Below the pieces are notes generated by a model. That model saw only the letters and a program-made list of their open reading frames with translations, had not been told where the DNA came from and did no database searches. Of a stretch of 64,000 nt of DNA, positions 24,720 through 24,986 are shown in pieces (the first letter of the stretch is position 1; every line of letters starts with the position of its first letter). The stretch is taken from positions 15,666 through 79,665 of the forward strand of contig JARGPR010000005.1 of NCBI GenBank assembly GCA_029210125.1, in the 5' to 3' direction. This DNA is from Pseudomonadales bacterium (lineage in GTDB: Bacteria; Pseudomonadota; Gammaproteobacteria; Pseudomonadales; JAHRWD01). The position numbers and the translations under genes were made by a program.

Positions 24720-24986
24720 ATGCCCGATTTATCCATTATTGTTACCGCCTCCACCGTTGTTGCGGTTGTCGGCATCGCCATTGGCGTATTACTGCCCGCC
24801 CTTGCCATGGGTCGGGCGATTAGTGCCGCCCTTGATGCGCTGGCACGACAACCCGAGGCAGAGAGCTCCATTATGCGCACCCTGTTTATTGGCCTGGCGA
24901 TGATCGAATCGCTGGCGATCTACGTATTGGTGGTGGTACTGATTGTGCTATTTCGCAACCCGCTGCTGGAATATTTGTTGCCGTAG
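24720..24986 (+). CDS. atpE: N-ATPase c subunit (rotor ring)
   Basis: 88 residues, two helices joined by the loop ARQPEA. The ion carboxylate is Glu63, in helix 2, with Ser64 and Tyr68 as in Na+-type rings. The residues that correspond to the other Na+ ligands in Ilyobacter c (Gln32 and Thr67) are Met30 and Leu65 here. The N-terminal helix has no extra carboxylate at that site. Ion choice is therefore unclear from sequence. Confidence 0.95.

Follow-up and report, generated by a model that had tools for sequence, protein, structure and literature searches.

An N-type operon without atpR

The window, a stretch of 64,000 nucleotides on a contig of a Pseudomonadales bacterium, carries an operon for a rotary ATPase at positions 21927-28095, in which all eight subunit genes are open (Table 1). 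The genes follow the order beta-epsilon-Q-a-c-b(delta)-alpha-gamma, which is that of N-ATPases of the Dibrova type, with beta and epsilon first and Q, a, c, b, alpha and gamma behind them. As in N-ATPases, there is no separate delta gene, and PF00430 and PF00213 both match a single ORF of 246 aa. By translation and profile search, the ORF at 24720-24986 encodes an intact c subunit. The atpQ ORF has a TTG start which overlaps epsilon, and its true start may be located further downstream; the atpG ORF begins with GTG, its true start probably being later. The Walker A motif of beta is identical in 60 of 66 aligned rows (four of the remaining six are not covered there), and alpha of the window keeps the SVSRIGG motif.

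Table 1. Genes of the operon and selected residues of subunits c and a (positions in the window).
Feature	Position	Strand	Match or conservation
atpD, beta subunit (462 aa), Walker A GGAGVGKT	21927..23315	+	PF00006 1.8e-68
atpC, epsilon subunit	23338..23745	+	PF02823 4.1e-12
atpQ (ATPase_gene1)	23712..24017	+	PF09527 7.3e-9
atpB, stator subunit a (232 aa, GTG start)	24018..24716	+	PF00119 2e-40; NF009954 368 bits
a-Arg164, essential arginine (E. coli aR210)	24507..24509	+	Arg 98/98
a-Glu173 (E. coli aE219 position)	24534..24536	+	Glu 93, Gln 4, Asp 1 of 98
a-His195 (E. coli aH245 position)	24600..24602	+	98/98
a-Glu198 (E. coli a248 position)	24609..24611	+	98/98
atpE, rotor subunit c (88 aa)	24720..24986	+	PF00137 E=3.9e-13
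c-Pro26 (Ilyobacter Pro28, helix-1 kink)	24795..24797	+	81/81
c-Met30 at Gln32 position	24807..24809	+	81/81; Glu in nearly all AtpR+ N-ATPases compared
c-Glu63, Ser64, Leu65 (Ilyobacter Glu65, Ser66, Thr67)	24906..24914	+	81/81
c-Tyr68 (Ilyobacter Tyr70)	24921..24923	+	81/81
atpF-type b fused to delta/OSCP domain	25035..25775	+	PF00430 1.8e-11, PF00213 2.9e-8
atpA, alpha subunit, P-loop GDEGLGRSS (Lys to Arg)	25772..27247	+	PF00006 2.5e-75
atpG, gamma subunit	27205..28095	+	PF00231 7.2e-30

No atpR follows Q, and PF12966 has no match at E<=10 anywhere in the genome. The 80 sister loci were likewise without an AtpR match (E<=10); 11 of them lack epsilon or a, their upstream part being incomplete. 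Subunit a exceeded the NF009954 cut-off (368 against 272 bits), and scores stayed below the curated cut-offs of three NCBIfam 'alternate F1F0' models (TIGR03322, 96.1 against 130.85; TIGR03305, 575.3 against 752; TIGR03306, 198.6 against 302.1).

The genome (3.13 Mb, 99.84% complete) encodes one other c subunit (PF00137). This lies in an ordinary F-type operon, in which a, c, b, delta and epsilon have profile matches and alpha, gamma and beta were named by eye from the starts of their ORFs. A full-length NqrB is also encoded (L239, G000:C29:52173-53339, 576 bits), and a primary Na+ pump or Na+ cycle therefore probably exists in the cell. The Host_attach/baeRF gene at 21377-21829 was considered as an operon partner and discarded, having 0 matches in the 80 sister loci, of which 55 extend at least 4.3 kb upstream of c.

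The ion site of subunit c

Subunit c was aligned with the c sequences of Ilyobacter (1YCE) and Fusobacterium (3ZK1) as deposited in the PDB. Ahead of P26 there are gaps of three residues close to the N-terminus and of a single residue in helix 1, and from P26 to N80-P81 the alignment is gap-free. P26, M30, M61, E63, S64, L65 and Y68 of the window hereby correspond to P28, Q32, V63, E65, S66, T67 and Y70 of Ilyobacter. The initial annotation had proposed a partial Na+ site in which Glu63, Ser64 and Tyr68 are kept and the positions of Gln32 and Thr67 are taken by Met30 and Leu65, and had seen no second carboxylate in helix 1. The alignment bears out each of these points, and no Asp or Glu is found between D3 and D39. 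A different polar residue in place of Gln32, which had been considered as well, is rejected, as the gap-free stretch has none at this position. Na+-type c subunits combine Gln or Glu at position 32 with a polar residue at position 67; the window c has neither, and the full set of Na+ ligands first proposed for N-ATPases is absent from it.

Na+ F-type rings, i.e. those of Ilyobacter and Fusobacterium, share with the window the Glu, Ser and Tyr of the site and the helix-1 Pro, but have Gln or Glu32 and Thr67 where the window has Met and Leu. Cyanobacterial and chloroplast H+ rings were the first and third sequence matches in the PDB (2WIE and 4MJN, 62.9 and 54 bits), the second being a chain named 'F1FO ATPASE C1 SUBUNIT' (4BEM). 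2WIE and 4MJN resemble the window in having Leu at the Thr67 position and in keeping the Tyr; unlike the window, with its Met and Ser, they keep the Gln and have Ala after the Glu.

Conservation of the c site

The contig search for relatives gave at least 331 matches, the best 80 of which were used as sister loci and, together with the window copy, provided 81 c sequences. P26, M30 and residues 59-68 are identical in all of them. Between the 80 relatives and the window, codons 58-68 show 400 synonymous and 0 non-synonymous differences, as compared to 1181 synonymous and 923 non-synonymous codon differences in helix 1 (residues 8-42). The M30 codon is ATG in 80/80 relatives; because Met has a single codon, the invariance of M30 is without synonymous backing. 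The ion site is under strong purifying selection, and drift in one genome is rejected as an explanation, the same residues being present in 81/81 sequences. Given such strong constraint, the site is very probably functional. The names of many relatives among the 80 are those of marine genera (e.g. Marinobacter, Oceanimonas, Photobacterium, Microbulbifer). According to record titles, the same c site is also fixed in genomes from groundwater, fen and lake.

AtpR and helix-1 residue 30 in N-type ATPases

AtpR-containing N-ATPases were collected with PF12966, which matched in 15/299 genomes from the phylum of the window, and with TIGR03322, which matched in 21/398 genomes of this phylum, 24/369 of the window's class, 17/17 chosen genomes, 45/118 from the phylum to which a Nitrospira genome belongs (a large part of them F-type-like) and 26/148 in the phylum of a Desulfuromusa genome. 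The phylum of a Terriglobia-labelled genome yielded 1/149, and that of the L022 genome yielded, apart from the centre genome, those of the Desulfuromusa phylum again and nothing further. Duplicates (L083-L097 except L092, L123-L139, L001, L117) were removed for the stator counts and for the 100 c rows of the Met30 clade, and were included in the counts of 59 Glu30 rows, of AtpR arginines and of the alpha P-loop. Where Glu stands in the place of Met30, AtpR is found on the locus in 57 of 59 rows (duplicates included); one of the remaining two has AtpR further upstream and the other locus ends inside a. Among the 100 c rows of the Met30 clade (no duplicates) none has AtpR, some of these loci being cut upstream.

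A quick tree of subunit a, a sequence in which neither trait lies, was built from 127 rows; it holds about one in three of the 80 sister loci and leaves out rows with an a of less than 170 aa. The 97 N-type rows stand together on one side of a branch that separates them from the F-type (SH-aLRT 95). Those without AtpR make up a single group of 49 rows which includes the window (47 Met30, 2 Leu30; SH-aLRT 98), and AtpR-containing N-ATPases, nearly all with Glu at the Met30 place, fall outside this group. On the 97 N-type rows AtpR needs one change and residue 30 three, and the absence of AtpR maps to the branch on which Glu30 is lost as well. L142 and L114 were coded as AtpR-present. This was confirmed for L114 (L242); the contig of L142 ends inside a (L241), and coding AtpR as absent there would add a change.

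Several rows depart from the common pattern. L203 and L204, from the phylum of a Desulfuromusa genome, keep AtpR and have Met at the Glu30 place together with Gln32 (window numbering) and a stator with His172-Glu173; they represent a separate loss of the helix-1 carboxylate. Sphingobium cloacae keeps AtpR and has Gln30 instead of Glu30. L151 and L207, which lack AtpR and are sister to the clade, have Leu30 together with Lys or Arg at helix-1 position 28, near the ion site. Both an AtpR-containing two-Glu operon and an AtpR-less Met30 operon are found in Thiohalocapsa marina (L120/L137), Marinobacter koreensis (L121/L139), Marinobacterium lutimaris (L122/L138) and genome G102 (L105/L119), and these four genomes are natural material for testing the roles of AtpR and the helix-1 carboxylate. 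Met30-type operons also occur on plasmids (L223, L234), namely pSCD of Sulfuricella denitrificans and plasmid II of Legionella fallonii, the latter typed as conjugative, which fits horizontal spread. In the P-loop of alpha, the Lys of the non-catalytic site is replaced by Arg in the window; in the Met30 clade Arg is present in 66/100 and Lys in 34/100 loci (duplicates included), and Lys is present in 43/43 Glu30-type rows and in 15/15 named plasmid records.

Residues of stator subunit a

Arg164, Asn168, His195, Glu198 and Gln202 of subunit a are each present in 98/98 rows of the clade. Numbers of E. coli residues were assigned by alignment with the cell's own, E. coli-like F-type a and by the spacings 214-219 and 245-252; Asn168 aligns with aN214 and Gln202 with aQ252. 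The AlphaFold model of subunit a has a mean pLDDT of 75.3, and its fold matches ATP synthase a chains in the PDB. The pair of Glu173 and His195 also occurs in the F-type a of this cell (L002 'GEHI'). The inlet proton chain has been described as including aE219, aH245, aN214 and aQ252, aH245 and aN214 being crucial in simulations (PMC11121307). Glu at the a198 position is clade-specific in our sample, occurring in none of the other classes scored.

Glu30 rows with EST..Y differ in having Gly195 and T, A, S or V at position 173 in 36/36, never Glu173; AtpR was seen in 35 of them. In the ten other Glu30 rows the Glu is followed by SI, SL, TM or TT, and each of these rows has a carboxylate at 172, 173 or 195. 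Among 14 named AtpR-type N records, EST goes without a stator carboxylate in 5/5 and ETM with one in 7/7; in one of the 14, from Methylocystis, AtpR was not found, the stretch being cut there. A stator carboxylate is missing from Legionella anisa (ESL) and Croceicoccus (ESV), and L110 and L113 combine ETT with one. Two of three Na+-motif F-ATPases, those of Fusobacterium vincentii and Acetoanaerobium noterae, are readable at both stator places, and both have Asp195; the enzyme of F. nucleatum, close to F. vincentii, has been measured as Na+ coupled (PMC3692424). A stator carboxylate alone is rejected as a H+ marker, since these two Na+-motif enzymes carry Asp195. The Glu173-His195 pair, common to the cell's own F-type enzyme, is probably the more telling proton feature.

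Relation to known enzymes

AtpR-less N-type ATPases have been reported for Nitrospiraceae (PMC12342949, ISME J 2025), AtpR-less Nitrosococcus loci were noted in PMC4154653, and Methylacidiphilum has a 'gammaproteobacterial' operon without AtpR and without ESTxxY (PMC6688271, 2019). Like the window, Nitrospiraceae and Methylacidiphilum are described as having an operon atpDCQBEFAG without atpR, second to an F-type enzyme. Nitrospiraceae further share with it the loss of Glu32, the change of Thr67 to Leu and an atpQ of PF09527, and Methylacidiphilum the lack of ESTxxY and a b-delta in one gene. The window has the marks of an AtpR-less N-type ATPase: no atpR, the PF09527 atpQ, Glu32 lost, Leu for Thr67 and a place beside an F-type ATPase. 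Moreover, L145-L150, from the phylum of a Nitrospira genome, have the same Met30...ESL..Y c as the window. Enzymes of Nitrospirales and Methylacidiphilum with like features have already been read as serving H+ translocation or pH homeostasis (PMC12342949, PMC6688271), and the window enzyme belongs to this reported AtpR-less group, which most probably moves protons. Compared to these reports our set, which is without Methylacidiphilum, is wider, with the c site in 81/81 sequences, His195 and Glu198 of a in 98/98 rows and a single group in the subunit-a tree. The stator signature and the fixation of the c site are additions to what is in print; in the open-access literature we found no text on Glu198, nor on the difference at His195 among N-type groups, a negative result of little weight. 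ProAD motif counts give 893 H+-type and 914 Na+-type N-ATPases.

The N-ATPase of Burkholderia pseudomallei, with a c17 ring, resembles the window in having the beta and epsilon genes first and the helix-2 Glu and Tyr (PMC5376962). Unlike the window with its Met30 and Ser64-Leu65, it has AtpR, two carboxylates (Glu30, Glu61) and Thr62-Met63. The c subunit of B. pyrrocinia has the Glu-Thr-Met pattern of B. pseudomallei in a helix, GLAMIETMAIY, much like that of the window.

The coupling ion

N-type ATPases were originally proposed as Na+ pumps, and the operon is still often read so. The c subunit of the window is the rotor of an AtpR-less, N-type-like rotary ATPase which stands beside an ordinary F-type ATP synthase and which we consider likely to be coupled to protons. 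From the residues of rotor and stator we infer the coupling ion, the geometry of the pocket and the role of Glu198. The ring would bind one proton per subunit on Glu63, whose protonated carboxyl would be held by Ser64 and Tyr68, and the non-polar side chains of Met30 and Leu65 would seal the pocket, leaving Na+ with too few oxygen ligands. The proline of helix 1, a contributor to the helix kink in c11 and c15 rings (PMC2914638), is kept in 81/81 sequences, and Met30 therefore probably still faces Glu63. An E. coli-like half-channel in the stator (Glu173, His195, Asn168, Gln202) would feed the ring, with Glu198 as an extra carboxylate of the clade on the helix that carries His195 and Gln202, placed between these two.

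Several oxygen ligands are required for Na+ (PMC2359735), and Na+ distances are given in PMC3692424. Aliphatic side chains in place of Thr67 occur in enzymes that are, or are predicted to be, H+ coupled (PMC2359735), and a missing Na+ ligand means H+ by a published criterion (PMC11738941). The two-carboxylate ring of B. pseudomallei was measured as predominantly H+ selective (PMC5376962), and N-type membership therefore does not imply Na+. The initial annotation had left the choice between a proton site and a weak Na+ site; the evidence supports this pair of readings and shifts it towards protons, owing to Met and Leu at two ligand positions, the E. coli-type stator and the relatives read as H+ enzymes. 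Certainty is tempered by the Na+-site features Glu63, Ser64 and Tyr68 and by Met61, which could still give a backbone carbonyl. The stator contrast follows clades, and the link to Thr67 has exceptions. For Thiotrichaceae the residue at the Thr67 position has been argued to be irrelevant for Na+ (PMC10532065). No biochemistry on a Met30-type ring was found in the literature searched.

A weak or mixed Na+/H+ site, at which Glu63, Ser64, the Met61 carbonyl and waters bind Na+ when it is in large excess over protons, e.g. in a marine cell with an alkaline outside, would account for the three side chains kept from the Na+ site, and NqrB in the cell and the marine names among the 80 relatives agree with it; the enzyme of M. 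acetivorans, moreover, is stated to couple both ions (PMC3692424). Yet Met30 offers no side-chain oxygen from helix 1, Leu takes the place of the water-binding Thr67, the half-channel has residues like those of E. coli, and genomes from groundwater, fen and lake share the fixed site, which makes this reading improbable. Far less probable still is an AtpR-less complex without ATP-driven ion pumping, as suggested in PMC4154653: the absence of atpR and the Arg in the alpha P-loop would agree with it, but all eight genes are open, the window retains the Walker A motif of beta and SVSRIGG of alpha, and the site is invariant at the protein level against 400 synonymous codon differences.

The losses of AtpR and of the helix-1 Glu might also be mechanically linked, which is compatible with the proton enzyme that we prefer. 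AtpR would then handle two-carboxylate rings and have become dispensable once Glu30 became Met or Leu. Two arginines in its predicted membrane helices are invariant in 57/57 Glu30-type rows (duplicates included), its absence is a single change on the branch of the Glu30 loss and extends over all 100 Met30-clade c rows (some cut upstream), and a speculated interaction of AtpR with c is mentioned in PMC6688271. However, the tree holds only two independent contrasts, one as predicted and one opposite, as L203/L204 have Met30 and yet an AtpR with both arginines; S. cloacae has AtpR with Gln for Glu30, and a single co-occurrence proves no link. With two independent contrasts only, a statistical test of AtpR against Glu30 was rejected as well. 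The association of AtpR with residue 30 is real as a clade feature and unproven as a mechanism, and we regard the mechanical link as possible, though rather unlikely. In a broader proposal, which we regard as unlikely, the rotor of this clade gave up its second carboxylate while another arose in the stator, so that the ring would have a single-Glu proton site with a methionine cap and AtpR would have become dispensable. Glu198, one helical turn from His195 and from Gln202, would then act as the last proton relay at the rotor-stator interface, a half-channel arrangement found in none of the other classes sampled.

Since the ion moved by a subgroup that spans many genera is most likely the proton, the operon type by itself does not suffice for conclusions on Na+ physiology.

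Further variants of subunit c

An orphan c-like ORF of 88 aa (L118:1486-1752) resembles the Met30 type, ending in NPLLEYLLR, and its site is without carboxylate. It stands alone among ORFs that by eye resemble response regulators, and among 23 genomes of the genus a close copy is found in its own genome only. In F-type-like c sequences from the Nitrospira and Desulfuromusa phyla (L152-L170, L208-L219, L140), Gln and Met are swapped at the same position, with 5 changes on 27 rows.
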